A DNA stretch of 64,000 bases from an uncultured Rhodospirillaceae bacterium (GTDB lineage: Bacteria > Pseudomonadota > Alphaproteobacteria > Rhodospirillales > Magnetospirillaceae): contig CAIUSV010000009.1 in NCBI GenBank assembly GCA_903901915.1, positions 1 through 64,000 of the forward strand, in the 5' to 3' direction. A model generated the notes under the pieces. It saw nothing but the letters and a program-made list of their open reading frames with translations. It was not told the origin of the DNA and made no database searches. Position numbers and translations under genes: made by a program. The stretch's first letter is position 1. Every line of letters begins with the position of its first letter. Below, one piece after another: positions 22,033 through 38,867 of this stretch.

Positions 22033-24087
22033 ATGAAGTCCCTGTGGTCAGACGCCGACGCCGAATCCTTCGTTACCCGATACGCCTCCCAGGGGATCAG
22101 CCGGGACGTGGCGCTCAGGGTCTATACCACCCGGCTGCTGGGTGGCGATCCCCGGCTGGTGCTGCACGGCGGCGGCAATACCTCGTGCAAGACCACGCTG
22201 ACCGACCTTTTGGGCGAGGCGGTCGAGGTGCTGTGCGTCAAGGGCTCGGGCTGGGACATGGGCGACATCGAACCGGCGGGGCTGCCGGCGGTGCGGTTGG
22301 CGCCGCTGCTGAAGCTGCGCCGGCTGGAGCGGCTGTCCGACGAGGACATGGTGGATTTCCAGCGCGGCAACCTGATGACCTCGTCCTCGCCCAACCCGTC
22401 GGTCGAGGCGCTGCTGCACGCCTTCCTGCCGCACACGTTCATCGACCACACCCATTCCACCGCGGTGCTGGCGCTGACCGACCAGCCCAATGGCGAGGCG
22501 ATCTGCCGCGAGGTCTATGGCGCCAGGATGGGCTATGTCCCCTACATCATGCCGGGCTTCGCCCTGGCGAAGAAGGCGGCGGAAATCTACGAGCAGGATC
22601 CGTCGGTGGAAGGGCTGATCCTGTTCAAGCACGGTATCTTCACTTTCGCCGAGACCGCGCGTCAGGCCTATGACCGCATGATCGAGATGGTCACCCTGGC
22701 GGAACAGCGGCTGGAAAAGGGGCGCAAGCCGCTGGTGGCCGCCGCCGGCCTGCCCAAGGTCGCGGCAAGCGTGGCCGAGGTGGCACCCATCCTGCGCGGC
22801 CTGCTGGCGCTGGACCGGGGCGACGGCGCCTATCGCCGCTGGGTGATGGATTTCCGTACCGGTCCGGCGATCCGCGCCTATGTGGACGGTGCCGAGCTTG
22901 GGCGCTATTCGCAGGCCGGCGTGGTCACCCCCGATCACACCATCCGCACCAAGAACTGGCCGGTGGTGCTGCCGGCCCCCGAGGCGGGCAGGCTGGACGA
23001 GTGGGCCAAGGCGGCCCAAGCGGCGGTCGATACCTTCGTCAATCGCTACGACGCCTATTTCGCCCGCAACAATCAGCGTCTGGGCGGGATCAAGACCGAA
23101 CTTGACCCCATGCCCCGCGTCGCCCTGGTGCCGGGGCTGGGGCTGTTCGGTATCGGCGCCAGTGCCAAGGATGCGGCCATCGCCGCCGATCTTGCCGTCA
23201 ACACGGTGGAATGCGTCGCCGATGCCGAGGCCATCGGCCGCTTCGAGCCGGTGGGCGAGGCCGATCTGTTCGACCTGGAATACTGGTCGCTGGAACAGGC
23301 CAAGCTGGGCAAGGGCGGCGAGAAGCCGCTGGCCCGTCAGGTGGTGGTGGTGACCGGCGGCGGTTCCGGCATCGGCGCCGCTACCGCCCGGGCGTTCGCC
23401 GCCGAGGGCGCCGAGGTGGCGGTGCTGGATCTGTCGGCCGAGGCCGCTCAGGCGACGGCCAAGGGCTGCGGCGGCAGGGCGATGGGCCTGGGCTGCGACG
23501 TCACCGATGCCGGGGCGGTGCGGGCCGCCGTCGACGCCGTGGTCGCGCGCTTCGGCGGCGTCGATATCGTCGTCAGCAATGCCGGCGCCGCATGGCAAGG
23601 CACGGTGGGCGAGGTCGGTGACGACACGCTGCGCCGGTCGTTCGAGCTGAATTTCTTCGCCCACCAAAGCGTCGCCCAGAACGCGGTCCGGGTGTTCAAG
23701 GCCCAGGGCACCGGGGGCGTGCTGCTGTTCAATGCCTCCAAGCAGGCGGTCAACCCCGGCAAGAACTTCGGCCCCTATGGTCTGCCCAAGGCCTCGACCT
23801 TATTCCTGATGAAGCAGTACGCCCTTGATCACGGTCAGGACGGCATCCGCTCCAACGCGGTCAACGCCGACCGTATCCGTTCGGGCCTGCTGACCGACGA
23901 CATGATCAAAAGCCGCTCGTCGGCGCGCGGCCTGTCGGAAAAGGACTACATGGGCGGCAACCTGCTGGGTCGCGAGGTCACCGCCGCCGATGTCGCCGAT
24001 GCCTTCGTCTGGCTGGCCAAGGCCGGCAAGGTCACCGCCTGCACCGTCACCGTCGATGGTGGCAACATCGAGGCCAGCCTGCGCTGA
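22033..24087 (+). CDS. Bifunctional class II aldolase / short-chain dehydrogenase (RhaD-type)
   Basis: A 684-residue fusion. The N-terminal half (about 1-420) is a zinc class II aldolase, with HGGGNTSCK and the metal-binding HTHSTAVLAL. The C-terminal half (about 430-684) is an SDR with VTGGGSGIGAATARAF and the catalytic Tyr-Lys in YGLPKAS. The family includes rhamnulose-1-phosphate aldolase/lactaldehyde dehydrogenase enzymes. Here there is no rhamnose transport or kinase operon. Instead a glycan biosynthesis island follows 90 bp downstream, so it may make or break down a sugar phosphate for that island. Substrate is unproven. Confidence 0.9.
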   Translation: MKSLWSDADAESFVTRYASQGISRDVALRVYTTRLLGGDPRLVLHGGGNTSCKTTLTDLLGEAVEVLCVKGSGWDMGDIEPAGLPAVRLAPLLKLRRLERLSDEDMVDFQRGNLMTSSSPNPSVEALLHAFLPHTFIDHTHSTAVLALTDQPNGEAICREVYGARMGYVPYIMPGFALAKKAAEIYEQDPSVEGLILFKHGIFTFAETARQAYDRMIEMVTLAEQRLEKGRKPLVAAAGLPKVAASVAEVAPILRGLLALDRGDGAYRRWVMDFRTGPAIRAYVDGAELGRYSQAGVVTPDHTIRTKNWPVVLPAPEAGRLDEWAKAAQAAVDTFVNRYDAYFARNNQRLGGIKTELDPMPRVALVPGLGLFGIGASAKDAAIAADLAVNTVECVADAEAIGRFEPVGEADLFDLEYWSLEQAKLGKGGEKPLARQVVVVTGGGSGIGAATARAFAAEGAEVAVLDLSAEAAQATAKGCGGRAMGLGCDVTDAGAVRAAVDAVVARFGGVDIVVSNAGAAWQGTVGEVGDDTLRRSFELNFFAHQSVAQNAVRVFKAQGTGGVLLFNASKQAVNPGKNFGPYGLPKASTLFLMKQYALDHGQDGIRSNAVNADRIRSGLLTDDMIKSRSSARGLSEKDYMGGNLLGREVTAADVADAFVWLAKAGKVTACTVTVDGGNIEASLR

Positions 24088-24177
24088 CGCGGGCGGAGCG
24101 GATTGCGCCGGACCGGCGAATGGCGTAGCTTCGCGCGCGTCCGGCCGGGGTAACGGCCACATTCGAGGAGGACGGGC

Positions 24178-25176
24178 TTGGCCAAGAAGGTGTGGAACGT
24201 GCTGGTCACCGGCGGCGCCGGCTATGTCGGCAGCGAACTGGTGCCGGCGCTGATCAATGAGGGCCACAAGGTCACGGTGCTGGACCTCTACCTCTATGGC
24301 GAGGTCTTCGCCGATCTGGCCGGTAACCCCAACCTGCGCGAGGTCAAGGGCGATATTCGCGACGTCGCCACGGTCGAGGGGGCGTTGAAGGGCTGCGACT
24401 GCGTCATCCATCTCGCCTGCATCTCCAACGACCCCAGCTACGACCTCGATCCGGCGCTGGGCAAGTCGATCAACCACGACGCCTTCCGCCCGCTGGTCAA
24501 GGCGGCCAAACGGGCCGGGATCCGGCGCTTCATCTACGCCTCGTCGTCGTCGGTCTATGGCGTCAAGGACGAGCCCGAGGTCACCGAGGATCTGGCCCTG
24601 GAGCCGCTGACCGATTATTCCAAGTTCAAGGCGCTGTGCGAGCGGGAACTGGAGGAAGAGCGCCATCCCGGCTTCACCGTCTGCACCATCCGTCCCTCGA
24701 CCGTGTGCGGCTATGGCCGCCGTCAGCGTCTCGACGTGGTGGTCAACATCTTCACCAATCAGGCGGTCAACACCGGCAAGATCCGTGTCACCGGCGGACC
24801 GCAGAAGCGCCCCAACATCCATATCCAGGATATGGTGCGCTGCTATCTTCACCTGCTGCAGCAGGACGATGCCGCCATCGACGGCAAGATCTGGAATGCC
24901 GGCGACACCAATTACCCCATTTCGGAACTGGCCGAGATCGTGCGGCGGGTGGTGGGCGAGCATGTCGCCATCGAGACCCTGCCGACCAACGATCCGCGCT
25001 CGTACCACGTCTCGGGCAAGAAGATCCGCGACGACATCGGTTTCGAGCTGAAATACACCATCGAGGACGCGGTGCGCGGTCTGGCCGAGGCGATGAAGAC
25101 CGGCAAGCTGGTCGATCCGCTGAACAACCCGGACTATTTCAACATCAAGCTGATGCAACAGGTGAAATTGACATAA
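24178..25176 (+). CDS. NAD-dependent epimerase/dehydratase (nucleotide-sugar)
   Basis: A 332-residue extended SDR. The NAD site is VTGGAGYVGSELVP; the catalytic Tyr-Lys is in DYSKFK; SSSSVYG and RPSTVCGYGRRQ are typical of the UDP- or GDP-sugar epimerase/dehydratase group. The start is TTG at 24178 with GAGGAGG at good spacing. It opens a tightly packed run (HAD, kinase, split transketolase) with gaps of 12 bp or less. It probably changes the sugar ring of a nucleotide-linked precursor. Exact reaction cannot be read from sequence. Confidence 0.9.
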   Translation: MAKKVWNVLVTGGAGYVGSELVPALINEGHKVTVLDLYLYGEVFADLAGNPNLREVKGDIRDVATVEGALKGCDCVIHLACISNDPSYDLDPALGKSINHDAFRPLVKAAKRAGIRRFIYASSSSVYGVKDEPEVTEDLALEPLTDYSKFKALCERELEEERHPGFTVCTIRPSTVCGYGRRQRLDVVVNIFTNQAVNTGKIRVTGGPQKRPNIHIQDMVRCYLHLLQQDDAAIDGKIWNAGDTNYPISELAEIVRRVVGEHVAIETLPTNDPRSYHVSGKKIRDDIGFELKYTIEDAVRGLAEAMKTGKLVDPLNNPDYFNIKLMQQVKLT

Positions 25177-25187
25177 GGGACTGGGCC

Positions 25188-25799
25188 TTGCGCATCGGAC
25201 TCGACTTCGACAACACCATCGCCGGCTATGACCGGGTGTTCCGCGCCGCCGCCGCCGGTTTTCCCGGCGCCGCTCGCGCCGTCACCAAGAAGCAGGTGCG
25301 CGATCTGGTGCGGCTGTCGATCGAAGGTGATGTCGCCTGGCAGCGGTTGCAGGCCGAGGTCTATGGCAAGCGGATGCCCGAGGCCGAATTGGTCGATGGT
25401 GTCGGCGATTTCCTTCGACACTGTCGCGAACGTGGCTGGGAGGTGGTGGTGGTCAGTCACAAGACCGAGACCGCGCCCCTGGACCCGGAACGGATCAATC
25501 TGCGCCATGCCGCCATGGCGTGGATGGACGCCCAGGGCTTTTTCGCCGCCGACGGTTTCGCTCTCAAGCGCAAGGACGTGCATTTCTGCGCCACCAGGGC
25601 GGAAAAGATCGCCCGTATCGGCCAACTTGCCCCCGCCGCCTTTGTCGATGACCTGGAAGAGGTGTTCGCCGAACCCGACTTCCCCGTCGGGGTCGAGCGT
25701 TACCTCTATCATCCGGCCAAGCCGCTGCCCTCGGGCGCCTTCCTTCCCTTCGCCGACTGGAGCTCCCTTGGCGCCCACCTGTTCCAGCGGCTCGGCTGA
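25188..25799 (+). CDS. HAD-superfamily hydrolase
   Basis: A 203-residue HAD-fold protein with the nucleophile motif GLDFDNTI (D6, D8), motif II in VVVSHKTE and the acidic motif IV FVDDLEEVF. It probably removes phosphate from a sugar phosphate. The start is TTG at 25188, with AAGGGA upstream. The next gene, an APH-type kinase, begins 32 bp before its stop, so the two may act on the same intermediate, as kinase/phosphatase pairs do in heptose activation. Substrate inferred only from neighbours. Confidence 0.83.
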   Translation: MRIGLDFDNTIAGYDRVFRAAAAGFPGAARAVTKKQVRDLVRLSIEGDVAWQRLQAEVYGKRMPEAELVDGVGDFLRHCRERGWEVVVVSHKTETAPLDPERINLRHAAMAWMDAQGFFAADGFALKRKDVHFCATRAEKIARIGQLAPAAFVDDLEEVFAEPDFPVGVERYLYHPAKPLPSGAFLPFADWSSLGAHLFQRLG

Positions 25800-26736
25800 A
25801 CGTCTGGTCGGCGCGCCGGTGCGGGCGGTCGCGCCCGGCGGGCGGGGCGGCAACAATCGTCTGTCCCGGGTCGAAGCCGTGGACGGGCGGCGCTTCGCGT
25901 TGAAGTCCTATCCCGCCACCGCCGGTGACGATCGCGACCGCCTGGGGGTCGAATTCGCGGCGCTGACCTTCCTGAAGCGCCACGGAGTGGCCGAGGTGCC
26001 GACAGCCCTGGCACGCGACGACCGGACGGGTGAGGCTCTTTACGAATGGATCGAGGGCGAGCCGGTGACGGCGCCGACGGCGGCCGACATCGACGCGGCG
26101 CTTTGCTTTGCCGGCCGGCTGCATCGGCTGCGGCGGTCGGCGGGGGCCGAGGCGCTGGGCTGGGCGTCGGAAGCCTGCACCGGCGGTGCCCGGCTGGTGC
26201 ATCAGACCGAGACCCGGCTGCGGCGCCTGGGCGAGGTGGCGACCCGGCACCGGGGTCTGGGCGAGGTGCTGGACCGGGCTGGTGGCGATCTGGCGACGTA
26301 TCGGGGCGCGGCCCTGGGCTTCGGCGATCTGGCGGACGAGGCGCGCACCCTGTCGCCGGCTGATTTCGGCTTTCATAATGCGCTGCGACGGCCGGATGGC
26401 GGTCTGGTCTTTCTCGATTTCGAGTATTTCGGCTGGGATGATCCGGTGAAGCTGGCGGCCGAGTTCGATCTTCATCCCGGCATGAGTCTGCCGCCGGAGC
26501 TTTCCGCGCGCTGGCGCGACGGCATCGGTGCGGTGTATGACGACGTGCCCGGCTTCGACCGGCGGCTGGCGGCGTTCCGGCCGTTGTTCGCGCTGCGCTG
26601 GGCGTTGATCGTGTTGAACGAGTTCCTGCCCGAACGTTGGGCGCGGCGCCAGGCGGCGGGAGCGACCGATGCCGAGGCCGCCCGTGCCCGGCAGTTGGAC
26701 AAGGCCCGGACCTTGCTGGCGAAAGTGAGTGAGTGA
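25768..26736 (+). CDS. APH-like phosphotransferase
   Basis: A 322-residue protein-kinase-fold small-molecule kinase of the aminoglycoside/choline type. Visible are the nucleotide Lys (FALKSYP), the altered catalytic loop SPADFGFHNAL where many homologues have HGDLHxxN, and the metal-binding LDFEYFGWDDP. It likely phosphorylates a sugar in the island pathway. The start is placed at TTG 25768, where GGAG lies upstream; this overlaps the HAD gene by 32 bp. A later start is possible. Third TTG start in a row. Confidence 0.8.
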   Translation: MAPTCSSGSAERLVGAPVRAVAPGGRGGNNRLSRVEAVDGRRFALKSYPATAGDDRDRLGVEFAALTFLKRHGVAEVPTALARDDRTGEALYEWIEGEPVTAPTAADIDAALCFAGRLHRLRRSAGAEALGWASEACTGGARLVHQTETRLRRLGEVATRHRGLGEVLDRAGGDLATYRGAALGFGDLADEARTLSPADFGFHNALRRPDGGLVFLDFEYFGWDDPVKLAAEFDLHPGMSLPPELSARWRDGIGAVYDDVPGFDRRLAAFRPLFALRWALIVLNEFLPERWARRQAAGATDAEAARARQLDKARTLLAKVSE

Positions 26737-27594
26737 ATGACCAAGATTTCCGCTATCCGTCAGGCCGCCGCCCAAGCCGAGGCGCGGCCGCTCGACAACC
26801 GCTCGAAGCATCTGCGCCGGCTGGTGGTGGAAGGGCTGCTGGGCGGTGGGCGCGGCCATATCGGCTCTTCCATGTCGCCCATCGAGATCCTGCGGGTGCT
26901 TTATGATGAGGTGCTGCGCTTCGACCCCGCCAATCCGAAATGGCCCGAGCGCGACCGCTTCATCCTGTCCAAGGGCCATGGCTGCCTTGCCCAGTACGCC
27001 CTGCTGGCCGACAAGGGCTTTTTCCCCCGCGAGACGCTGAAGACCTTCTGCAAGCGTGACTCGATCCTGGGCGGCCATCCCGAGGCCGGCAAGATCCCCG
27101 GCGTCGAGGCCTCGACCGGCGCGCTGGGTCATGGCTTGTCCATCGGGCTGGGCATGGCGCTGGCGGCAAGGTTGCAAAGCCGCCCGTCCCGCGTGTTCGT
27201 GGTGATGGGCGACGGCGAGATCAATGAGGGCAGCGTGTGGGAAGCGGCCATGAGCGCCGGCAAGCACCGTCTGTCCAATCTGGTCGCCATCGTCGATTAC
27301 AACAAGATCCAGTCCTATGACCAAACCGACGAGGTCCAGCCGCTGGACCCGTTGCCCGAGAAGTGGGCCAGCTTCGGTTTCGCCGCCGTCGAGGTCGATG
27401 GCCACGACGTCGATGCCCTGTCGGCGCTGTTCCGGCGGCTGCCGTTGGAAGACGAGCGGCCGACCGCCATCATCGCCCACACCGTCAAGGGGCGCGGCAT
27501 TCCCTTCGCCGAGCACCAGCCGTCCTGGCATCACAAGAACAAGCTGAGTGAAGACGAAGTGCGCGCCATCGCCGCCGCGCTGGAGGATGTCTGA
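26737..27594 (+). CDS. Transketolase-like enzyme, N-terminal (ThDP-binding) subunit
   Basis: A 285-residue half-transketolase. It holds SKGHGCLAQYALLADKGFF and the thiamine diphosphate motif GDGEINEGSVWEAAMSAG...DYN, with substrate-loop residues GHPE. It lacks the pyrimidine-binding half, which is the next gene. Such split pairs often serve secondary sugar or ketose pathways rather than the pentose cycle. The ATG directly follows the kinase stop. It could transfer a C2 unit to or from the island's sugar phosphate. Confidence 0.9.
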   Translation: MTKISAIRQAAAQAEARPLDNRSKHLRRLVVEGLLGGGRGHIGSSMSPIEILRVLYDEVLRFDPANPKWPERDRFILSKGHGCLAQYALLADKGFFPRETLKTFCKRDSILGGHPEAGKIPGVEASTGALGHGLSIGLGMALAARLQSRPSRVFVVMGDGEINEGSVWEAAMSAGKHRLSNLVAIVDYNKIQSYDQTDEVQPLDPLPEKWASFGFAAVEVDGHDVDALSALFRRLPLEDERPTAIIAHTVKGRGIPFAEHQPSWHHKNKLSEDEVRAIAAALEDV

Positions 27595-28520
27595 TGCGCA
27601 ATACCAGTCTGAACAAGGTCCATGAACTGGCCAAGCACGACCCCAGGGTGGTGTTCATCGGCTCCGACCTCGGCCATGGCACCTTGAAGGCGATGAAGGC
27701 CGAGATGCCCGAGCGCTTCTTCATGGAAGGCGTCGCCGAGCAGAACATCATCGGCATGGCCGCCGGCATGGCGCTGGACGGGCTGATCCCCTACGTCAAC
27801 ACCATCGCCCCCTTCATTACCCGGCGCTGTTACGAGCAGGTGGCGGTGGACCTTTGCGTCCACAACCTGCCGGTCCGCCTGATCGCCAACGGCGGCGGCG
27901 TGGTCTATGCCCCGCTGGGACCGACCCATCTCGCCATCGAGGATTTCGCCATCCTGCGGCCGCTGCCCAACATGGCGGTGGTGGCGGTGTCCGACGCCGA
28001 GGAGATGAAGCGGCTGATGGACGCCTCGCTGGACTGGCCGGGGCCGCTTTACATCCGCCTCGCCAAGGGCGGCGATCCGGTGGTGTCGAGCCCGTCGGAC
28101 GATTTCCGCATCGGCAAGGCCATCCTGCGTCGCGAACCGGGCCGGGTGCTGATGGTGTCCACCGGCGCCACCACCCATCGCTGTCTGCAAGCGGCGGAGT
28201 CGCTGGCGGCGGCCGGAATCGAAAGCGGCGTTCTCCACATGCATACCATCAAGCCGCTGGATGGCGAGGCGCTTCGACGCCTGGTGCCGGGCCGCGATCT
28301 GCTGGTGACGGTCGAGGAACACCTGCTGGCCGGGGGGTTGGGGTCGGCGGTGCTGGAATGCCTGGTGGACGGCGGCATTTCCTTGCCCAAGGTGCTGCGC
28401 CTAGGAATTCCCGATGCCTTCACCAAGGAATACGGCTCGCAGGACACCATGTTCGACACCTTCGGCCTGACGGCGGACAAGATCGCGGCCAGTGTGCGCG
28501 CCGCTCTTTCGCCGGGTTGA
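27594..28520 (+). CDS. Transketolase-like enzyme, C-terminal subunit
   Basis: A 308-residue partner of the preceding subunit. The pyrimidine-binding domain shows the conserved catalytic Glu region EGVAEQNIIGMAAGMALDG and the C-terminal transketolase domain from about 180. The ATG overlaps the upstream stop (TGATG), so the two chains are coupled and form the holoenzyme. Full set of family residues; nothing truncated. Same role caveat as for the N-terminal half. Confidence 0.9.
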   Translation: MRNTSLNKVHELAKHDPRVVFIGSDLGHGTLKAMKAEMPERFFMEGVAEQNIIGMAAGMALDGLIPYVNTIAPFITRRCYEQVAVDLCVHNLPVRLIANGGGVVYAPLGPTHLAIEDFAILRPLPNMAVVAVSDAEEMKRLMDASLDWPGPLYIRLAKGGDPVVSSPSDDFRIGKAILRREPGRVLMVSTGATTHRCLQAAESLAAAGIESGVLHMHTIKPLDGEALRRLVPGRDLLVTVEEHLLAGGLGSAVLECLVDGGISLPKVLRLGIPDAFTKEYGSQDTMFDTFGLTADKIAASVRAALSPG

Positions 28521-28664
28521 CCTCTTTCGGATAAGAACGCCATGCCCCGTCTTTCCGTCGCCATTCCCGTCCGCAAATGCCTTGATCTGGCCGCGTGAGC
28601 CGCTAATCTGTATCCGGATGGCAGCCGACCCCGCGCGCCTTGTACTGATGAGAGTTTCCCTGTC

Positions 28665-29783
28665 ATGCGTATTCCTCTCGTTGATCTGCGGGCCCAATAC
28701 CTCCGCTGCCAGTCCGAGTTCGATCAGGCGGTGGTCCAATGTTTGGACCGGACCAGCTTCATCGGCGGGCCGGATCATGATGCCTTCGCCAAGGAGTTCG
28801 CCTCCTATTGCGGCGGCGGCATCACCGTTCCCTGCGGCAACGGCACCGATGCCCTGTCCATCCTGCTGGTGAACCTGTTGGGGCAGGGGGACGGCACCGG
28901 CGAGATCATCACGGTTTCCCACACCTTCATCGCCACCGTGGAGGCCATCGCCACCGCCGGCTATCGGCCGGTGCTGGTGGATGTGGACGCCGCCACCTAC
29001 ACCATGGACCCGGCGGCGTTCGAGCGGGCCATCACCCCGCGCACGGTGGCGGTGGTGCCTGTACATCTCTACGGTCAGATGGCGGCCATGGATCGCATCG
29101 CCGACATCGCCGGCCGCCATGGACTCAAGGTGGTGGAGGATGCCGCCCAGGCTCACGGAGCCGCTTGGCAGGGCAAGGGACCCGGCCAGTGGGGCGCCGG
29201 CGCCGGCTTCAGCTTCTACCCTGGCAAGAACCTGGGGGCCTGGGGCGATGGTGGCGCCGCGCTGGTTCATGACGCCGACCTCGCCAAGGCCATGGAAAGC
29301 TATTGCTTCCACGGGCGCATCGACAAGTTCCGCCATCGCGTGCTGGCGGTGAACTCGCGCTTGGATGGGCTTCAGGCCGCGGTTCTGCGGGTCAAGCTGC
29401 GCCATCTGCCGACCTGGACCGAGGAGCGTCGGCGCGCCGCCGGCTGGTATGGCGAGGCGTTGGCCAAGACCTGCGGCGACCGCATCGTGTTGCCGGCGGT
29501 GGCCCCCGATGCCTACCATGTCTACCACCTGTTCGTGATCCAGGTGGAAGACCGTGACCGCGTCCTCGCTCGCCTCAACGAGCAGGGGATCGGCGCCAGC
29601 ATTCACTATCCGGTGCCGGTCCACCTACAGCCCGCCTTGGCGGACCGTGCCATCGCCGCCGAGGACCTGCCGGTGACTCACCGTCTGTGTGGCCGCATCC
29701 TGTCCTTGCCCATCTATCCCGAGATCACCCGCGATATGGTGGATCATGTCGCCACCACCTTGGGGAAAATTCTTCAGGAATAG
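28665..29783 (+). CDS. DegT/DnrJ/EryC1 aminotransferase, WbpE/WlbC-like
   Basis: A 372-residue PLP enzyme of the sugar aminotransferase family. The opening IPLVDLRAQY and GNGTDAL recall WbpE/WlbC, which aminate the 3-keto sugar made by WbpB/WlbA. The PLP Lys lies in FSFYPGKNLGAWGDGG and the phosphate-binding region in DAAQAHGA. A Gfo/Idh oxidoreductase follows 91 bp later and a WbpD-like acetyltransferase lies at 38379, completing the same three-step logic. It is preceded by 144 bp with no gene. Substrate is inferred. Confidence 0.9.
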   Translation: MRIPLVDLRAQYLRCQSEFDQAVVQCLDRTSFIGGPDHDAFAKEFASYCGGGITVPCGNGTDALSILLVNLLGQGDGTGEIITVSHTFIATVEAIATAGYRPVLVDVDAATYTMDPAAFERAITPRTVAVVPVHLYGQMAAMDRIADIAGRHGLKVVEDAAQAHGAAWQGKGPGQWGAGAGFSFYPGKNLGAWGDGGAALVHDADLAKAMESYCFHGRIDKFRHRVLAVNSRLDGLQAAVLRVKLRHLPTWTEERRRAAGWYGEALAKTCGDRIVLPAVAPDAYHVYHLFVIQVEDRDRVLARLNEQGIGASIHYPVPVHLQPALADRAIAAEDLPVTHRLCGRILSLPIYPEITRDMVDHVATTLGKILQE

Positions 29784-30891: not shown

Positions 30892-30901
30892 CCGCTTTCC
30901 G

Positions 30902-31657
30902 CTACCGCTTGCGCAGGACCAGACCCAGCACCCGGCTGATATCGGGCATATCGTTGCGGATCAGCGCGAGGCGCGCGCCAACCTCGTTGAGGACGCCTTG
31001 GTAATCGGGCTCGGCGGGCCGCACCGCCAGCGGATGCACGATCCGCGAGACGAAGTCGTAGGTTCCGAATGAGATCCTCTCCACGACATCATACTTGTCC
31101 TGGAAGAAAGCGAGGGTCTCGTCCTCATCAAAGTCGAGATTGTGCCAGACCGGCGGCATCGCCGCGAGGCCCGACTGTTCGCGGAGCGCGTTCAAATGGG
31201 TGCGCCCCTGCGCCGAGCCTTCGATAAAGATCAGACGGCCACCGGGCTTGAGCACCGAGCGGATGTTTTCCAGTGCCAGCTTCTGCTTTTCCACATCCAG
31301 GATGTTGATCAGGCAGCGGATGGTCATCACCACATCGAACATGCCGTGAGAGTCGGGGCCAAGCTCCAACACGTCCTGAACCTTGAAATCGGCGTTGGCG
31401 GGGGCGTTCTGGGCCGCGCGGTCAATCATCTCCGGCGAGAAATCGACGCCCCGGATGCGGGTGACCAGGGGGGCCAGCAGCTTGGTCGCGTAGCCGGCGC
31501 CACAGCCGATATCAAGCACCGTGTCCGACGGCTTCAACAGATCTTTGATCCGCTCTATCTCAAGCCAGCGTTGCCAGACATCCCGATGCGTGACGGAAAT
31601 ATCGTCAATGGCGGCATCGGCGGCCCGGCCGGACCAGAAGCTCTTGACGTCGGACAT
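30902..31657 (-). CDS. Class I SAM-dependent methyltransferase
   Basis: A 251-residue soluble methyltransferase. The SAM-binding motif I is VLDIGCGAGYATKLL; motif II acidic residue lies in IRGVDFSPEMID; the post-motif run RSVLKPGGRLIFIEG is standard. It is the only minus-strand gene between the plus-strand blocks of the island. It probably O- or N-methylates a sugar or lipid-linked glycan. The chosen ATG has AGGAG 11 nt upstream; a much longer frame crosses the neighbouring epimerase gene and is a shadow. Confidence 0.88.
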   Translation of the reverse strand: MSDVKSFWSGRAADAAIDDISVTHRDVWQRWLEIERIKDLLKPSDTVLDIGCGAGYATKLLAPLVTRIRGVDFSPEMIDRAAQNAPANADFKVQDVLELGPDSHGMFDVVMTIRCLINILDVEKQKLALENIRSVLKPGGRLIFIEGSAQGRTHLNALREQSGLAAMPPVWHNLDFDEDETLAFFQDKYDVVERISFGTYDFVSRIVHPLAVRPAEPDYQGVLNEVGARLALIRNDMPDISRVLGLVLRKR

Positions 31658-31822
31658 GTGAAACGATCTCCTGCTGGAGTTGATGGTCCCATGCGGTCCC
31701 CGCATATAGCCCAGGTCCAGACATGAGGAAATGGCAAAAGTTTGGATACTCCGGCTTGACATTCCGTTGCCAACAGGCTCTGTCCTTACCATCATACTCA
31801 GTCTCAGAGCGATAGGATCGAC

Positions 31823-32809
31823 ATGGATCTCAGGGGTAAGCGCGTTCTGGTGACCGGTGGTGCCGGCTTCATCGGCTCGGCCATCATCGATCAACTGGCG
31901 GCCGAAGGTACCGGCGAGATCGTCGCCGTCGACAACATGGTACGCGGCCGCGCCGACAACCTGACCTCCGCGCTGAGGCGCGGCAATGTCCGGCTGGTCG
32001 AGGGCGACATTCGCGATCGCGAGCTGATGGCGCGTCTGGTCGAGGGCAGCGATCTGGTGTTCCACATGGCGGCGCTGCGCATCACCCATTGCGCCGCCGA
32101 GCCGCGTCTGGCGCTTCAGGTGATGGTGGATGCGGTGTTCGACCTGCTGGAGCTGTGCGTCGAGCACAAGGTGGAGAAGGTGGTGGCCGCCTCTTCGGCC
32201 TCGGTCTACGGTCTGGCCGAGCACTTCCCCACCACCGAGAAAGAAAATCCCTACGACAACCGCACCTTCTACGGCGCCGCCAAGGTGTTCAACGAGGGCA
32301 TGCTGCGATCCTTCGCCGATATGTACGGCCTCAATTATACCGCCATGCGCTATTTCAACGCCTATGGCCCGCGCATGGACATTCACGGCAAGTATACCGA
32401 GGTGCTGATCCGCTGGATGGAGCGCATCGAAGCGGGCCAACAGCCGTTGATCTTCGGCGACGGCAAGCAGACCATGGATTTCGTGCATGTGGACGATATC
32501 GCCCGGGCCAATGTGCTGGCCGCCAAGGCCAACGTCACCGACGAGGCGTTCAACGTCGCCAGTCAGACCGAGACCAGCCTGCGGCAGTTGTCCGACATGC
32601 TGTGCAAGGTGATGGGCCGCGAGGGGCTGGAACCGGAATACGGCCCCGAACGCGCCGTCAATCCGGTGCCGCGCCGTCTGGCCGACACCGCCAAGGCCCG
32701 GACCCTGCTGGGCTTCGAGGCGAAGGTGACGCTGGAGGACGGCCTGCGCGGTCTGGTGGACTGGTGGCGGGCCGAGCGCAGCCGTTTCGACGCGGCCAAG
32801 AGCGCCTGA
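31823..32809 (+). CDS. NAD-dependent epimerase/dehydratase (second copy)
   Basis: A 328-residue extended SDR with VTGGAGFIGSAIID, SSASVYGLAEH and the catalytic Tyr-Lys in FYGAAKVFNE. The TMDFVHVDD segment is typical of nucleotide-sugar epimerases and 4,6-dehydratases. It overlaps the next aminotransferase gene by one base, so they are likely to act in sequence: dehydratase or epimerase, then transamination, as in PglF/PglE or PseB/PseC type paths. It is not a close copy of the one at 24178. Start supported by AGGA. Confidence 0.9.
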   Translation: MDLRGKRVLVTGGAGFIGSAIIDQLAAEGTGEIVAVDNMVRGRADNLTSALRRGNVRLVEGDIRDRELMARLVEGSDLVFHMAALRITHCAAEPRLALQVMVDAVFDLLELCVEHKVEKVVAASSASVYGLAEHFPTTEKENPYDNRTFYGAAKVFNEGMLRSFADMYGLNYTAMRYFNAYGPRMDIHGKYTEVLIRWMERIEAGQQPLIFGDGKQTMDFVHVDDIARANVLAAKANVTDEAFNVASQTETSLRQLSDMLCKVMGREGLEPEYGPERAVNPVPRRLADTAKARTLLGFEAKVTLEDGLRGLVDWWRAERSRFDAAKSA

Positions 32810-33948
32810 TGATCCCCATCGCCAAACCGCTGCTGGGCGAGGAGGAGGCCGAGGCCGCCCGCGCCGCCGTCCTGTCCGGCTGGGTCACCCAAGGACCGCA
32901 GGTGGCGGCGTTCGAAGCCGAATTCGCCGCCCTGGTCGGCGCGCCGTTCGCCTGCGCCGTCTCCAACTGCACCACCGCGCTGCATCTGGCCCTGCTGGCG
33001 GTGGGGGTGGTGCCGGGCGACGAAGTGATCACCGTCAGCCATTCCTTCATCGCCACCGCCAATGCGGTCCGCTATTGCGGCGCGGCTCCGGTCTTCGTCG
33101 ATATCGATCCGGTCAGCTTCAACATGGATCCCGAGGCGATGGCGGCGGCGATCACGCCTCGGACCAAGGCGGTGCTGCTGGTCCACCAGATCGGCATGCC
33201 CGGCGACATGGCCCGTATCCTGGAGATTGCCCGCGGCCACGGCCTTATGGTGGTCGAGGACGCGGCTTGCGCCATTGGCTCGGAAATCCGGGTGGATGGC
33301 CAGTGGCGAAAGATCGGCGCTCCCCATGGCGATGTCGCCTGCTTCTCGTTCCACCCCCGCAAGGTGATCACCACCGGCGACGGCGGCATGATCACCACCG
33401 CCAATGCCGAGTATGACCGGCTGTTCCGCCTGTGGCGCCAGCATGGCATGAGCGTTCCCGACACGGTGCGGCACGCCTCGGCCAAGGTGGTGAACGAAAG
33501 CTATCCCGTACTGGGCTTCAACTATCGCATGACCGATATCCAGGCGGCGGTGGGGCGCAAGCAACTGGAGCGCCTGCCCATGATCGTGGCGCGCCGACGC
33601 GAGCTGGCCAGCCGCTACGGCCGGCTGCTGGCGGCGATTCCCGGCCTTGCTCCGCCAGCCGAGCCGGACTGGGCCCGCTCCAATTGGCAGAGCTATTGCG
33701 TCCGTCTGCCTGCCGGTGCCGATCAGGGAACGGTGATGCAGGCCATGCTGGACCGTGGCGTCGCCACGCGGCGGGGCATCATGTGCAGCCATCGCGAGGA
33801 GGCCTGTGCCGATCTGGAGTCGCGCCATTGCCTGATCCGGTCCGAGGCGGCCCAGGACCATTGCATCTTGCTGCCGCTCTACGTCCAGATGACCGAGGTG
33901 GAGCAGGACCGGGTGATCGAGGCCCTGGCGGAGGTTTTATGCGGATGA
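32809..33948 (+). CDS. DegT/DnrJ/EryC1 aminotransferase (second copy)
   Basis: A 379-residue PLP sugar aminotransferase. The opening IPIAKPLLGEEEAEAA and SGWVTQGPQVAAFE resemble the PglE/PseC/ArnB group that aminates 4-keto sugars. The PLP Lys lies in FSFHPRKVITTGDGG and the Asp partner in VVEDAAC. The start overlaps the epimerase stop (TGATG) and the end overlaps the GT2 gene by 10 bp. It differs clearly from the WbpE-like enzyme at 28665, so the island may make two different amino groups or two amino sugars. Confidence 0.9.
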   Translation: MIPIAKPLLGEEEAEAARAAVLSGWVTQGPQVAAFEAEFAALVGAPFACAVSNCTTALHLALLAVGVVPGDEVITVSHSFIATANAVRYCGAAPVFVDIDPVSFNMDPEAMAAAITPRTKAVLLVHQIGMPGDMARILEIARGHGLMVVEDAACAIGSEIRVDGQWRKIGAPHGDVACFSFHPRKVITTGDGGMITTANAEYDRLFRLWRQHGMSVPDTVRHASAKVVNESYPVLGFNYRMTDIQAAVGRKQLERLPMIVARRRELASRYGRLLAAIPGLAPPAEPDWARSNWQSYCVRLPAGADQGTVMQAMLDRGVATRRGIMCSHREEACADLESRHCLIRSEAAQDHCILLPLYVQMTEVEQDRVIEALAEVLCG

Positions 33949-34922
33949 TGACCGAAGCGCGTCCCCTGATCAGCGTGGTCACGCCCTCCTATAACGAGGA
34001 ACGCAACCTGCCGGCCCTCTACGAACGGCTGAAGGCGGCGTTTGCCGATCCGGCGCTGACGGCGGTCGACTGGGAATGGATCGTCATCGACGACCACTCC
34101 GCCGACGGCACTTTCGCCGTCGCCGAGGCCATCGCCAAGGCCGATTCCCGGGTAAGGGTGCTGCGGTTTTCGCGCAATTTCGGCAGCCACGTGGGAATCG
34201 CCTGCGGCATCGACCATGCCCGGGGCGATTGCTGCGTCGTCATGGCCGCCGATCTTCAGGACCCTCCCGAAGCCATTTCCGGGCTGGTCGCCAAGTGGCG
34301 GGCCGGGGCTCAGGTGGTCTGGGCGGTTCGGGCCAGCCGGCCGGGCGAGGCGGCGGGAACCCTGGTCTTTGCCGGCCTTTACTACCTGATGATGCGCCGG
34401 GTGGTCGGTCTGAACGCCCTGCCGGCGACCGGAGCGGATTTCGTCCTGCTGGACAAGCGGGTGATGGCGGCGGTGCGCGCCCATGGCGAGCGCAATATGA
34501 GCATCCTGGCCCTGATCGCCTGGATGGGATTCCGCCAGGACGAGATCCGTTATGACAAGCGTGCGCGGACCGAAGGAGAGTCGGGGTGGACCCTGACCAA
34601 GAAGATCAAGCTGGTGGTCGATTCCCTGACCTCCTTCAGCTATCTGCCGATCCGGGCGATGTCGCTGCTCGGTCTTTGCGTCGCCGTCTGCGGCCTGCTG
34701 TATTCCGCCGTCGTGGTGGTCAATGCCCTGTTCGGTCACCCGGCCGAGGGGTGGTCGTCGTTGATGGTCGCTGTTCTGGTGCTGGGCGGGGCGCAGATGC
34801 TGATGCTGGGGGTGCTGGGCGAGTATGTCTGGCGCGGTCTCGATGAATCGCGCCGGCGTCCCCGCTATCTGATCGAGGCGTGTTCATTCGATGACGCTGA
34901 TTCTGCCGACACCGCGGCATAA
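33939..34922 (+). CDS. GT2 glycosyltransferase with C-terminal membrane helices (GtrB/DPM-like)
   Basis: A 327-residue enzyme likely to transfer a sugar from a nucleotide donor to polyprenyl phosphate. The GT-A core shows VVTPSYNEERNLPAL, IVIDDHSADGT and the donor/metal site MAADLQDPPE. Two hydrophobic helices (about 238-262 and 272-297) anchor it in the membrane. The start ATG at 33939 has GCGGAGG upstream and overlaps the aminotransferase. With the polytopic protein that follows it fits a GtrB-plus-GT-C export scheme. Confidence 0.9.
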   Translation: MRMMTEARPLISVVTPSYNEERNLPALYERLKAAFADPALTAVDWEWIVIDDHSADGTFAVAEAIAKADSRVRVLRFSRNFGSHVGIACGIDHARGDCCVVMAADLQDPPEAISGLVAKWRAGAQVVWAVRASRPGEAAGTLVFAGLYYLMMRRVVGLNALPATGADFVLLDKRVMAAVRAHGERNMSILALIAWMGFRQDEIRYDKRARTEGESGWTLTKKIKLVVDSLTSFSYLPIRAMSLLGLCVAVCGLLYSAVVVVNALFGHPAEGWSSLMVAVLVLGGAQMLMLGVLGEYVWRGLDESRRRPRYLIEACSFDDADSADTAA

Positions 34923-34973
34923 GCTCGTCCGTTCATGGCAGCCTGCGCAACCGCATGACTTAAGGTCCTACGA

Positions 34974-36446
34974 ATGTTCGGATCAGAGTCCAAATTCTGG
35001 AACGCCTGCCTGATCCTGGCCGGGGTGTTGCTGGTCGCCGGTATTGGCATCGAGGGAACTCTCTCTGTCAATCGCGATGCCGCCAACCTGACCCATGGCA
35101 CGTCGCGGCTGCTGGCCGGCATGCCGCTGGTGATGCATTTCGCGGAGACGGGCTTCAACACCGCCATTCTGCTGTCCATGGGGTCCAACAACCTGTTGTA
35201 TTTGCCGGCGGCGGCCCTGGCGGTTCTGCCCGGCGTGACCCCGGCGCTGGGCATCAAGACCGAGACGGCGGTTCTACTGGTGGTGGCGGGCTTCGCCCTG
35301 ATCCGCTTCTGCCGCGTCGGGCGGGCCGTCTGGCCGGGACTGCCGCTGCTGCTGCCGGCCGGCGCCTTCGCCTTGGCGGCGTTTCCGGTCGAAATGTACG
35401 CCCAGCGCGAGCACCTGTTCATTCTGTTGGTGCTCCCCTGGATTCTCGCCCGCGTCGCCGAGGCCGAGGGCCGGGAGAACCTGCCGCTACCCAGGGGGAT
35501 TACCTCGGCCATGATGGTTGCCGGGTTTCTGGTCAAACCCTATTTCCTGGTGATATGGGGGCTGGTGGAACTGCACCGGATGGTTGCCGCCCGCAGCCTG
35601 CGGCCGGTGATCCGTTGGGAGAACACGGCGCTGGTCACCGCGTACTGCGTGGTGTACGGCGGATTGCTCGCCACCATTGTGTGGGTGTACCGCATCCCCG
35701 AGTCACAGCTGGAAATCGGGGCGCTGCTGACCCACCGCTTCATGACCCATACCCTGCACGATCAGCTGATCCGCAAGCTGTCCCTGCTGTGGCTTCTGGC
35801 CTTTCCGGTGGTGCTGCTGGTTCGCGGGCCGGGGGTAAGGGTCTGGCTGTTGGCCACTTTCGGCGGCGTGGTGGCGTCCATCGCCCAGATGAGGGGGCAT
35901 GATTACAACTGGTACCCGGCCATCGCCTTCGCCGCCATGACGCTGGCATGGGGAACGGCGACATCCACCGGCTGGCGTAAATGGGCCGTCGGCGCGCTGA
36001 CCGCGGTGCAGGTCCTGCTGGCCGTGGTCCGAGCCGAAATTTTCGCCGAACGCGAATACGGCATGGCGAAGCAGGTCGACATCCTGGCCCCCAGGGTCGC
36101 CGAGCTGGCGCGAGGCGGCAAGGTGCTGTTCCTTTCCGTCAACCACTATCCGTTCTATCCCGTTCTGGCCCAGACCAGGCTTTACAGCGGCCTGAGGTTC
36201 CAGACACTGGGCTTCGTCACCGGCATTCTGGAGCCAAGCCTGCAAGTCCGCTTGATCGGGCCGCTGTCCGAGGCTGTCGCTTACGACATGGCCGCCGCCG
36301 ACGTTAAGGTCGTGGTGGTGGCCGAGGGCCTGGACAAGACACCGATTGTATCGGATCTGTTGGCTCGGCCAGCGGTACGCGAGGCCTTTAGCCACTACCG
36401 TTACGTCGAGACGTTGGTTGCCCACGAGATCTATGTCAAGGAGTAG
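34974..36446 (+). CDS. Polytopic membrane protein, GT-C-like
   Basis: A 490-residue inner-membrane protein with about 9-10 hydrophobic spans through residue 350, followed by a soluble C-terminal domain of about 140 residues (from about KQVDILAPR). The first loop is long and polar, and the C-terminal part sits outside the last span as in GT-C polyprenyl-phosphate sugar transferases. I see no clear DxD-type motif. It directly follows the GtrB-like gene by 51 bp. Probable role: moving the sugar from the lipid to a surface acceptor. No firm family match. Confidence 0.7.
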   Translation: MFGSESKFWNACLILAGVLLVAGIGIEGTLSVNRDAANLTHGTSRLLAGMPLVMHFAETGFNTAILLSMGSNNLLYLPAAALAVLPGVTPALGIKTETAVLLVVAGFALIRFCRVGRAVWPGLPLLLPAGAFALAAFPVEMYAQREHLFILLVLPWILARVAEAEGRENLPLPRGITSAMMVAGFLVKPYFLVIWGLVELHRMVAARSLRPVIRWENTALVTAYCVVYGGLLATIVWVYRIPESQLEIGALLTHRFMTHTLHDQLIRKLSLLWLLAFPVVLLVRGPGVRVWLLATFGGVVASIAQMRGHDYNWYPAIAFAAMTLAWGTATSTGWRKWAVGALTAVQVLLAVVRAEIFAEREYGMAKQVDILAPRVAELARGGKVLFLSVNHYPFYPVLAQTRLYSGLRFQTLGFVTGILEPSLQVRLIGPLSEAVAYDMAAADVKVVVVAEGLDKTPIVSDLLARPAVREAFSHYRYVETLVAHEIYVKE

Positions 36447-36484
36447 ACGGGCTTAACTGTCGCGGGGGCTTGCGCCCACAGGCA

Positions 36485-38164
36485 TCACTCCGCCGGAGCG
36501 GCGGGCCGTTTGGCTTGGAACAGCCGGCCCACCAGAGTAACCGGCAGGGTAAGCGCCGCCATGACGGCGACTTCGCAGAACCGGCTCAGAAGATAGAGGG
36601 CGATGCGCGCGACGCTGAGTGCGTAGCCCGAAGCGATCCAGCCCTTGGGCAGGATGATGACATTGCCGCCGGCCACCTTGCTGGTCAGCATCCGTTTGAT
36701 GCCCGCCGGCCGCAGATAGTAGCCGAGATTGGCGAACATGGTGGTGAACATCAAGGCGTAGCGGTTGGTACCGTCGGGAATATAGGGCAGATCGCTGCCC
36801 TTCCACATGTATTGCACCGAGAAATTGGCCCAATCGGGAGCGATCTTGCACTTGCCCTCGGCCTTGACCTGATCGAACAACGGCGTGCCGGGATAGGGTG
36901 TCAGGATATTGAAGCGAACGCTGTCCAACGGCAGGGCATAGACCAACTTGATGGCGTCCCAGCGGTCCTTCGAAGTCTCGGTGGGAAAACCGAAGATGAT
37001 GGTGGTGCAGACCTTGAAGCCGTAGCTGGTGGCCAGTTCGATGCCGTCAACCACCTGCTGCACGGTTTCGCCCTTCATGATCATCTTCATCAGGCGTTCG
37101 CTTCCCGTCTCCAGTCCATAGGACAAAACCTGGAAATTGGCCTCGCGCAGCTTGGCGAAAATGGACGGGTCGGCGTTGTCGGCCCGCATGGAACCCTCGA
37201 ACGACACCTTCTTGTGCAGTCCCTTGGCGATAATGGCGTCGCACAGACGGTTCAGCCGCTTCTTGTTGACCGCGAAATTATCATCGATCAGGTAGATGGA
37301 TTGAGCGCCGTACTGTTCGACCAGGGTTTCGATCTCCTCGATCACCCGCTCCTCGCTGTGATAGCGATAGCTGAGCGCCGTCATGCTGCGGGTCGAGCAG
37401 AAAGTGCATTTGTAGGGACATCCGCGCGACGACAGAATCGAATAGAATCCGACGTTGTAGCGATGGCGGTTATGGGCGAAATAGTGGAACGGAAACGGCG
37501 GCAGTTCGTCGAGTTCCTTGACCAGCGACCGATTGGGATTGTCGACGATCCTGCCGTTTGCGTCGATCCAACTCAGCCCCGCCCCGCCCCGCCAATCGTC
37601 GCCGGCCAGCACGGCGCGCATGAAGTCGGCGAAGATTTCCTCGCCCTCGCCACGGACCACGACATGGGCGGCCTTTTGCTCCAGCGCCTCGTGCGGCAGC
37701 ACACTGACATGGATGCCGCCCATCACCACCAGCGCATCGGGATCGATCTGCATGACCCGCCGCCCGATATCGAAGGCGGGGCCAACGCTGGCGGTCACCA
37801 CGCCGAGGCCGACGACACGCGGCTTGGGCATGGAGTTGATCAACCGGGCCAGGGTCGCGTCATCAATGTCGTCAAGCATCTCATCGACGATGTAGGTCTT
37901 GCATATCTGCATCTTGTCGAGATAGCTGGCGATGTACCCCAAGCCGGTCGGGAACATGGATCTGATGATTTTCTTCAGGATCGGAGTCTGAGTCCGCCGG
38001 TTGACCGCCGGATTGATCAGCAGGACGTTACATTGGGAAACCGGCGACAACCCGTAGGGCGTGCCTTCACCGACGAGGAAGGTTGACGGCGCCGACGGCG
38101 GCAACGCGACTTCCTTCTGCTGCGCCATGAAGATCGGCTTGGCTGTCGCTTGAGGTTTATCCAT
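36485..38164 (-). CDS. B12-binding radical SAM protein
   Basis: A 559-residue enzyme with an N-terminal cobalamin-binding Rossmann-like domain (about 45-190, PVSQCNVLLINPAV) and a radical SAM core with SRGCPYKCTFCS, so the 4Fe-4S ligands are C249, C253 and C256. The last 45 residues are strongly hydrophobic (ALSVARIALYLLSRF and onward) and may hold it at the membrane. No DxHxxG base-off motif is obvious. Homologues act as methyltransferases or in lipid/antibiotic synthesis. Sitting in the glycan island it may methylate an unactivated carbon of the sugar or lipid. Reaction unknown. Confidence 0.88.
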   Translation of the reverse strand: MDKPQATAKPIFMAQQKEVALPPSAPSTFLVGEGTPYGLSPVSQCNVLLINPAVNRRTQTPILKKIIRSMFPTGLGYIASYLDKMQICKTYIVDEMLDDIDDATLARLINSMPKPRVVGLGVVTASVGPAFDIGRRVMQIDPDALVVMGGIHVSVLPHEALEQKAAHVVVRGEGEEIFADFMRAVLAGDDWRGGAGLSWIDANGRIVDNPNRSLVKELDELPPFPFHYFAHNRHRYNVGFYSILSSRGCPYKCTFCSTRSMTALSYRYHSEERVIEEIETLVEQYGAQSIYLIDDNFAVNKKRLNRLCDAIIAKGLHKKVSFEGSMRADNADPSIFAKLREANFQVLSYGLETGSERLMKMIMKGETVQQVVDGIELATSYGFKVCTTIIFGFPTETSKDRWDAIKLVYALPLDSVRFNILTPYPGTPLFDQVKAEGKCKIAPDWANFSVQYMWKGSDLPYIPDGTNRYALMFTTMFANLGYYLRPAGIKRMLTSKVAGGNVIILPKGWIASGYALSVARIALYLLSRFCEVAVMAALTLPVTLVGRLFQAKRPAAPAE

Positions 38165-38378
38165 AGAGATCAGGCATCCTGAGTGGAAATGTCTGAAGAC
38201 TATAAAGAAATCGCTTCTCGCGATGCAACGCCATTCCCTTTGTGGTCATAAGGTCCTGACGCCAGGGAGCTCACACGCTTTTGCGGACGCCGGACGAGGA
38301 ATGCGCCTGTCCGGCAACATCGATAGCCGCCGCATCGTGGCTGTTGATCCCATGGATCCGGTTTCTCCCCGGCCGCGG

Positions 38379-38867
38379 TCAAATCCGAGACGTCGTGTCG
38401 CGCGCGTCGCCGATCACTCGGGCCGGAACGCCGGCGACGATGGCGTGGTCCGGCACATCCCGGGTAACCACCGCGCCGGCGGCGATCAGGGCACCCTCGC
38501 CGATGGTGATGCCGCAGACGATGGTGGCGTTACTGCCGATGGAGGCCCGCGCCTTGATCCGGGTCGGCACCGTGACCCAGTCCTCGCCCCCTTGCAGCGA
38601 CCCGTCGGGATTGACTGCGCGCGGGTAAAGGTCGTTGGTGAACATGACTCCGTGACCGATAAAGACGCCGTCCTCGATGGTGACGCCGTCGCAGATGAAG
38701 CTGTGCGACGAGATCTTGCAGCGGGCGCCGATGACGGCGCCGCGTTGAATTTCCACGAAAGCGCCGACCTTGGTCTCGTCACCGATGGTGCAGCCATAGA
38801 TGTTGACGAGATCTTTCTGAAAAATCCTGACGTCCTGTCCCAGGACCACGTCGTCGGTGACCGGCAT
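38379..38867 (-). CDS. Hexapeptide-repeat acetyltransferase, WbpD/WlbB-like
   Basis: A 162-residue left-handed β-helix acyltransferase with hexapeptide steps such as IGDETK, IEDGVF and IGEGAL, and the catalytic-type His in IGHGVMFTND. Residue pattern and length fit WbpD/WlbB, which acetylate the 3-amino group of a nucleotide sugar acid. With the WbpE- and WbpB-like genes at 28665 and 29875 it completes a dehydrogenation, amination and acetylation set. It is separated from the radical SAM gene by 214 bp with no gene. Confidence 0.88.
   Translation of the reverse strand: MPVTDDVVLGQDVRIFQKDLVNIYGCTIGDETKVGAFVEIQRGAVIGARCKISSHSFICDGVTIEDGVFIGHGVMFTNDLYPRAVNPDGSLQGGEDWVTVPTRIKARASIGSNATIVCGITIGEGALIAAGAVVTRDVPDHAIVAGVPARVIGDARDTTSRI

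Follow-up and report, generated by a model that had tools for sequence, protein, structure and literature searches.

In the window, a 64,000-nucleotide stretch of contig CAIUSV010000009.1 from an uncultured Rhodospirillaceae bacterium, the block of sugar-related genes at 22033-38867 consists of at least two adjacent sugar-making gene groups and is not a single pathway. Five of its genes (24178-28520) are, as judged by their joint recurrence in other genomes, a conserved, glycan-related unit: an epimerase-type short-chain dehydrogenase/reductase (SDR), EPI1; a HAD-fold phosphatase, HAD; a kinase of the APH/choline-kinase fold, KIN; and the two halves of a split transketolase, TKN and TKC. This five-gene cassette is widespread and would probably build an unusual activated cell-surface sugar, with partner enzymes encoded elsewhere in the genome. 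We read it as the predicted centre of a scattered pathway to an unusual nucleotide-activated sugar, parallel in logic to ADP-heptose synthesis, and put the probability of this reading at about 0.5. The cassette is best seen as the core of a putative heptose-like nucleoside diphosphate (NDP)-sugar pathway, supplied by a dedicated transketolase with changed substrate-pocket residues.

Conservation of the cassette

Does the block hold together in other genomes? Gene models were checked against Pfam and NCBIfam, with family matches accepted at E<=0.001. With HAD as bait, 20 of 289 alphaproteobacterial genomes gave a match (E<=0.001), and a scan of named genomes with the same protein yielded 21 loci, including two from Magnetospirillum, one from a metagenome-assembled genome (MAG) of the Nitrospinaceae and one from a Humidesulfovibrio MAG. 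A KIN profile matched 32 of 349 Pseudomonadota genomes at E<=1e-20, that of the window included, and regions were taken for 12 of them. Together with a plasmid locus (L053) and seven further regions, these make up the 41 loci on which our counts are based. We kept the 32 in which at least three of HAD, KIN, TKN and TKC were present; nine were dropped, namely L027, L033 and L044, which lie at contig ends, and L066, L069, L071, L105, L108 and L109. Because HAD and KIN served as baits, how often each occurs among these loci reflects selection.

All 32 cassette loci, hosted by Pseudomonadota, the Nitrospinaceae MAG and two desulfovibrios, preserve the order EPI1, HAD, KIN, TKN, TKC among the genes found, and TKC was found in 31 of them. 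A preliminary description of this DNA had grouped HAD, the kinase and the split transketolase as one set, and that grouping stands. The same description had joined the entire block into one pathway and proposed conservation of gene set and order as a check. Here the outcome is divided: 24178-28520 holds together, whereas most of the block belongs to unrelated pathways elsewhere. At the identity thresholds used, none of the 32 loci carries homologs of the aldolase/SDR gene (ALD), the Gfo/Idh/MocA dehydrogenase (GFO), the methyltransferase (MT), the second epimerase (EPI2), the second DegT aminotransferase (DegT2), the glycosyltransferase GT2, the GT-C-like protein (GTC), the B12-binding radical SAM protein or the hexapeptide acyltransferase (HEX). 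A gene like the first DegT aminotransferase (DegT1) follows TKC in 4/32. Conservation thus divides the cassette from the rest, and one functional block is not confirmed.

Nineteen short loci of other genomes (about 1.5 kb on each side; the L005-L023 series) stand outside the 41-locus count. In 12 of the 19, TKN comes after KIN inside the displayed stretch of roughly 1.5 kb. KIN lies apart from HAD in L017, L018, L020 and L021; HAD is followed directly by TKN and TKC in L018, and by an SDR in L020 and L021. In genome G056, about 45 kb separate HAD from the nucleotidyltransferase gene c3 (see below), and their contig also carries a KIN-TKN-TKC block (L070, L071). The exceptions L018, L020, L021 and G056 indicate that the set can be rearranged.

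The plasmid locus L053 (Solidesulfovibrio carbinolicus pDCAR1, 79605-120414) has HAD, KIN, TKN and TKC within an island whose annotated genes include pseB, pseC and pseF, along with genes for a NeuB-like synthase and for an MptE-like protein, which we take to be Maf-like. This plasmid glycan island also holds two different split-transketolase pairs and several radical SAM and methyltransferase genes. Flagellin glycosylation was considered as a destination of the sugar and dropped: pse and MptE-like genes are present in the Solidesulfovibrio island, and nothing of the kind was seen in the parts of our own genome that were read. The likely destination is a surface glycan.

Partner genes on other contigs

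Which enzymes, then, accompany the cassette? Partner proteins were typed with hidden Markov models on representatives (c3, c5, c7 and c12; c10 of L067 as TIGR04324; c6 of L031 and L067 as TIGR04323). The protein c3 is a CTP_transf_like and PfkB (cytidylyltransferase-PfkB) fusion that resembles HldE with reversed domain order, the nucleotidyltransferase preceding the kinase in our own copy and in L026. It accompanies the cassette in 25 of 32 loci. At E<=1e-60, c3 is found in 24 of 289 genomes, comprising 20/20 with a cassette HAD and 4/269 others (Fisher p 3e-27). It shares HAD's contig in 17 of the 20 genomes; 16 of these have the two genes 1.6-9.5 kb apart, and in one they are separated by 45 kb. 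In the other three, the window's own genome among them, c3 sits on a separate contig. The class I methyltransferase c5 is likewise present in 25/32 cassette loci; at >=238 bits, a limit chosen after viewing the list, it occurs in 18/20 HAD genomes versus 2/269 others.

The block contains no nucleotidyltransferase, as the preliminary description had correctly noted. Our genome's c3 is encoded at C51:79841-81376, with an SDR just before it, and its radical SAM protein c12, an ABC exporter and c5 are on contig C78. In two Magnetospirillum genomes c3 is contiguous with the cassette, and in one of these, VK2, c12 and c5 are as well. Strain VK2 (L025) has the order c3, HAD, KIN, TKN, TKC, c10, c6, c12, ABC, c5, and strain SS-4 (L024) has SDR, c3, EPI1, HAD, KIN, TKN, TKC. 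Partner proteins in these two loci are 70-87% identical to our own genome's copies: c3 adjoining the cassette in L024 and L025 at 85-87%, and c12 and c5 of L025 at 85% and 82%. This contiguity and identity is our main evidence that the window's cassette works with the genes on C51 and C78, and not with those now next to it.

The radical SAM protein c12, which gave no B12 domain match, and the oxygenase-type protein c10 each occur in 15 of 32 cassette loci, c10 always with c6 alongside. Strict mutual exclusion of the two was rejected, as L025 and L067 carry both. Nonetheless, 13 loci have only c12, 13 only c10, two both and four neither (n=32; Fisher two-sided p 0.0005, uncorrected for relatedness). 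This near-exclusive distribution suggests that a similar modification is reached by two routes, one aerobic and one anaerobic, a suggestion weakened by the shared ancestry of the loci. The c10 of L067 scores 283 bits against TIGR04324 (cut-off 150); no c10 of this type was seen in our own C51 and C78 regions (L051, L052) or among the modelled window genes, the genome as a whole not having been searched for it. TIGR04323 exceeds its cut-off in 15/20 HAD-bearing alphaproteobacterial genomes versus 6/269 others, and has 0 matches in our own genome.

The B12-binding radical SAM protein of the block, earlier proposed as a member of the pathway, is not supported as one. At >=40% identity it occurs in 0/32 cassette loci, several of which hold relatives at 22-31%; the other 239 of the 240 sampled genomes gave no match at E<=1e-60. 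It is another radical SAM protein, c12, that accompanies the cassette. By conservation, neither the B12-binding protein nor ALD is linked to the cassette.

Further genes surround the partners. As read from its proteins, C51 appears to carry c3 directly after a legionaminic-acid-type locus. A 643-aa protein encoded at L051:4376-6307 (our own C51) fuses a GT2 glycosyltransferase to a zinc alcohol dehydrogenase domain and adjoins Cyclase-family and 2-hydroxyacid dehydrogenase genes; two Magnetospirillum loci have 86% identical relatives upstream of the cassette. C78, also read from its proteins, has further sugar and radical SAM genes, and a reductase-cupin fusion of the RmlD type is encoded directly after c5 (L052:6230-7681, minus strand), and several cassette loci have full or partial relatives close to c5. 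In nine loci (L030-L032, L034-L037, L039 and L042), c3 has a divergently oriented neighbour that codes for a protein of about 920 aa, cut short in L034; the single copy tested has SBBP beta-propeller repeats.

The split transketolase

The closest PDB matches of TKN and TKC are the N-terminal component of the Carboxydothermus split transketolase (6yak, 1.6e-75) and its partner 6yaj (9.4e-55); that enzyme is likewise encoded by two genes. Residue numbers and their roles in thiamine diphosphate (ThDP) binding and catalysis are those we assume for E. coli TktA. The window proteins keep the equivalents of the ThDP-binding and catalytic residues H26, H66, H100, D155, E160, N185, E411 and H473. In contrast, H461, D469 and R520, which presumably bind substrate phosphate and hydroxyl, are retained in none of the cassette TKCs (0/32): all 32 carry Gly, Leu and Lys at these positions, where the Carboxydothermus protein has His, Asp and Arg. 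This count left out L055, a copy of the window, and loci with a truncated or absent TKC. Seven split transketolases from outside the cassette have four His, two Ser and one Gly at H461, two Asp, two Leu and three Tyr at D469, and Arg at R520 in 7/7. The R520 to Lys change is thus the sole pocket change that fully separates cassette TKCs from these seven; D469 to Leu was rejected as cassette-specific, since Leu is also found in 2/7. We read the Gly/Leu/Lys pocket as a changed acceptor or donor. A second transketolase, a 658-aa open frame of 34% identity on contig C46, makes TKN/TKC look dedicated.

Could the enzyme branch a sugar instead of extending it? An SDR would then make a keto-NDP-sugar, to whose ketone the split transketolase would add a hydroxyacetyl branch, while KIN, HAD and c3 supply the precursor. 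Hydroxyacetyl transfer to ketosugars, and with it a role in nucleotide-sugar synthesis, has been proposed for split transketolases of the miharamycin and amipurimycin clusters and not shown in vitro; the 13 such enzymes cited in that review are all streptomycete proteins that have not been characterised in vitro (PMC12247030). We liken these to the cassette by their two-gene form, not by sequence. The Gly, Leu and Lys of the cassette pocket would suit such a reaction, and several loci have an SDR gene, SDR51, immediately ahead of c3. At >=55% identity, SDR51 was counted in 13/32 loci. However, an HldE-like kinase/nucleotidyltransferase, a HAD phosphatase and a GmhA-like isomerase indicate early sugar-phosphate chemistry, and we regard branching as unlikely.

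Phosphatase and kinase

Neither HAD nor KIN matches a Pfam or NCBIfam family at E<=0.001. In HAD, the motifs DFDNT, SHKT and DD are invariant (19-row alignment); its AlphaFold model (predicted local distance difference test, pLDDT, 95.0) retrieved 28 PDB chains of HAD-superfamily hydrolases with Foldseek at E<=0.001, with TM-scores mostly of 0.45-0.60. In KIN, LS..D.G.HN and F.DFEYFGWDDP are invariant (20-row alignment), and the model (pLDDT 93.7) retrieved 220 PDB chains of the APH/choline-kinase fold at the same threshold. Fold, catalytic Asp/Asn and distal Asp agree with this assignment, and from its model KIN is probably a kinase, likely acting on a sugar. Three loci (L105, L108, L109) hold KIN without the transketolase pair in the stretch fetched, and one of these has it directly before c5, a hint that the two proteins may share an intermediate as substrate. 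EPI1 has GxxGxxG at 12 and YxxxK at 147.

Comparison with known sugar pathways

All roles of the ADP-heptose pathway (GmhA, HldE, GmhB, HldD) are represented in the wider cassette set: isomerase, C1 kinase, phosphatase, nucleotidyltransferase and epimerase. Unlike that pathway, the set has a c3 of reversed order, an extra APH-fold kinase and a dedicated split transketolase. The heptose-like logic of kinase and phosphatase put forward in the preliminary description fits in this respect, but membership in the heptose pathway fails, as all equivalog scores are under the cut-off. Our own c3 reaches 122.5 bits for TIGR02198 (cut-off 345) and 108.9 for TIGR02199 (cut-off 181.5), both HldE; c7, a SIS isomerase, reaches 97.2 and 90.4 in two relatives for GmhA (TIGR00441, cut-off 209.45); EPI1 reaches 69.3 for HldD (TIGR02197, cut-off 274.6). 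As for GmhB, HAD has the HAD fold only, with no NCBIfam or Pfam match at the threshold given above. The same scores make it improbable that the cassette merely duplicates transketolase and heptose functions for ordinary supply of the lipopolysaccharide core. Its HldE- and GmhA-like relatives would agree with such a role, but our genome has another HldE-like stretch (C62) besides the transketolase on C46, and the cassette HAD is found in only 20/289 genomes.

The NCBIfam 'sporadic carbohydrate cluster' families TIGR04323 (LIC12192 family) and TIGR04324 (2OG-Fe(II) oxygenase) have homologs downstream of the cassette in 15/32 relatives, located after two DegT genes in L099-L101; one c10 and two c6 proteins were checked for family membership, and each exceeded its cut-off. 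Our own genome differs from these relatives in having c12 and no TIGR04323 match. The two family descriptions name no pathway or product, and none of the open-licence papers searched uses the cluster terms. The lincosamide pathway (Lmb/Ccb) passes through a GDP-octose intermediate, and its genes encode a transaldolase, an isomerase, a kinase, a phosphatase and a nucleotidyltransferase (PMC12945683). The cassette, in contrast, uses a transketolase, and the hosts differ; we compare the two by enzyme role, not by homology. The order of the lincosamide steps is taken here as general background. In agreement with the earlier statement that no pathway of this combination had been described, none was found among the matches listed for open-licence literature (transketolase with O-antigen, flagellin glycosylation, heptose, octulose and bradyrhizose; NCBIfam cluster names).

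Proposed route

How might the heptose-like pathway run? KIN would phosphorylate a free aldose or a derivative of it, and the dedicated split transketolase would add a two-carbon unit. The SIS isomerase could then convert the ketose phosphate to an aldose phosphate, the PfkB domain of c3 would phosphorylate C1, HAD would strip the distal phosphate, and the cytidylyltransferase-like domain of c3 would form the NDP-sugar. EPI1 and a second SDR may set the stereochemistry. A radical SAM or oxygenase step and a methyltransferase would tailor the sugar before its transfer to a surface glycan. We infer this order, the substrates and the product. In its most specific form the proposal is tentative: a candidate new nucleotide-sugar pathway of many Pseudomonadota, some Nitrospinaceae and desulfovibrios, with a dedicated split transketolase of rebuilt acceptor pocket, a product of seven or more carbons or with a C2 branch, reversed HldE-type activation, and a finish by an O2-dependent oxygenase or an O2-independent radical SAM enzyme.

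Several observations weigh against a heptose-like pathway centred on the cassette. HAD is found in 30/32 and EPI1 in 20/32 loci, and the arrangement varies: of the 19 short loci, 15 have KIN next to HAD and four do not (G056, G123, G178, G274). KIN is without a transketolase in the stretch fetched for 3/12 loci, those named above, and the ADP-heptose pathway has no counterpart of KIN at all. The isomerase c7, absent from the window, occurs in only 17/32 loci; two SIS proteins on our own contig C19 (36-37%) may be ordinary GmhA or DiaA. The methyltransferase c5 is only partly specific, with relatives in 39/289 genomes at the looser E<=1e-30. The sampled genomes share ancestry, and p values such as the 3e-27 for c3 overstate their independence. 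The three blocks are unlinked in the 93-contig assembly, and their joint function here rests on orthology. Finally, the pocket changes suit branching of a nucleotide-bound ketosugar equally with chain extension.

The neighbouring gene group

The enzyme types named in the preliminary description were borne out at their places by Pfam and NCBIfam, and HAD and KIN by motifs and AlphaFold models (Table 1). The GT-C label of GTC stays a guess: this 490-aa protein has seven predicted hydrophobic spans and no Pfam or NCBIfam match.

Table 1. Modelled genes of the block, in window coordinates, and the basis of their assignment.
Gene	Position	Strand	Basis
ALD, bifunctional class II aldolase/short-chain dehydrogenase	22033-24087	+	NCBIfam NF006192 equivalog, 1150 bits (cut-off 639)
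EPI1, NAD-dependent epimerase/dehydratase-type SDR, first cassette gene	24178-25176	+	Pfam Epimerase 8.9e-42; TTG start as modelled
HAD, HAD-fold phosphatase	25188-25799	+	Motifs, AlphaFold/Foldseek; TTG start 25188 as modelled
KIN, APH/choline-kinase-fold kinase, probably a sugar kinase	~25819-26736	+	Motifs, AlphaFold/Foldseek; GTG start 25819 as modelled, true start uncertain
TKN, split transketolase, N-terminal half	26737-27594	+	Pfam Transketolase_N 8.8e-48
TKC, split transketolase, C-terminal half	27594-28520	+	Pfam Transket_pyr and Transketolase_C
DegT1, aminotransferase	28665-29783	+	DegT family match
GFO, Gfo/Idh/MocA dehydrogenase, neighbouring group	29875-30891	+	GFO_IDH_MocA
MT, methyltransferase	30902-31657	-	Family match
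EPI2, SDR/NAD-epimerase, neighbouring group	31823-32809	+	Family match
DegT2, aminotransferase, neighbouring group	32809-33948	+	DegT family match
GT2, glycosyltransferase	33939-34922	+	Glycos_transf_2
B12-binding radical SAM protein	36485-38164	-	B12-binding and Radical_SAM; CxxxCxxC
HEX, hexapeptide acyltransferase, neighbouring group	38379-38867	-	Family match

To what do the remaining genes belong? Locus L066 of genome G095, which is not among the genomes with a cassette HAD match, has HEX, GFO, DegT1, a second hexapeptide gene, EPI2 and DegT2 in a single run. Identities to the window proteins are 58% for GFO (between HEX and DegT1), 66% for EPI2 (beside DegT2), 69% for DegT2 and 69% for HEX (directly beside GFO), and DegT1 is 45% identical to the GFO-linked DegT. 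Because these genes recur jointly without the cassette, 29875-33948 (minus MT) and 38379-38867 seem to form a nucleotide amino-sugar group of their own. GFO itself is found in 2/240 genomes at E<=1e-60, our own included. That the whole block is one pathway to a branched or higher-carbon amino sugar is very improbable: its genes are physically adjacent, mostly on the same strand, and 4/32 relatives have DegT1-like genes after TKC, but the homologs missing from all cassette loci and the joint run in G095 argue otherwise. DegT1 may be a member of either group, since DegTs related to it follow TKC in L068 and L099-L101; assignment by a tree was rejected, the support of the deciding node being 0.064.

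The Gfo/Idh, DegT and hexapeptide acyltransferase genes occur together as do WlbA, WlbB and WlbC (Wbp) of 2,3-diacetamido-sugar synthesis, a comparison by enzyme type. HEX, GFO and DegT1 are adjacent in L066; in the window, 7.5 kb separate HEX from GFO. The best family scores are 179.9 bits for GFO (NF040723, cut-off 450) and 77.6 for HEX (TIGR03570, cut-off 160.8), and no UDP-GlcNAc 6-dehydrogenase gene is among the modelled genes of 22033-38867. MT opposes the otherwise plus-strand run between GFO and EPI2 and has no counterpart in the run of L066. G+C content is 0.61-0.63 across 36001-40000, which includes the B12 radical SAM and hexapeptide genes, versus 0.65 just before and 0.71 just after; this could fit a recent acquisition. 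It is also low, at 0.63, in 30001-32000.

Implications

Scattered blocks can hide a pathway: the nucleotidyltransferase, the radical SAM protein and the methyltransferase are here on other contigs than the cassette. If our reading is right, it would place a split transketolase in nucleotide-sugar synthesis, and the cassette and its partners would be a parts list for a widespread, chemically uncharacterised bacterial surface sugar.

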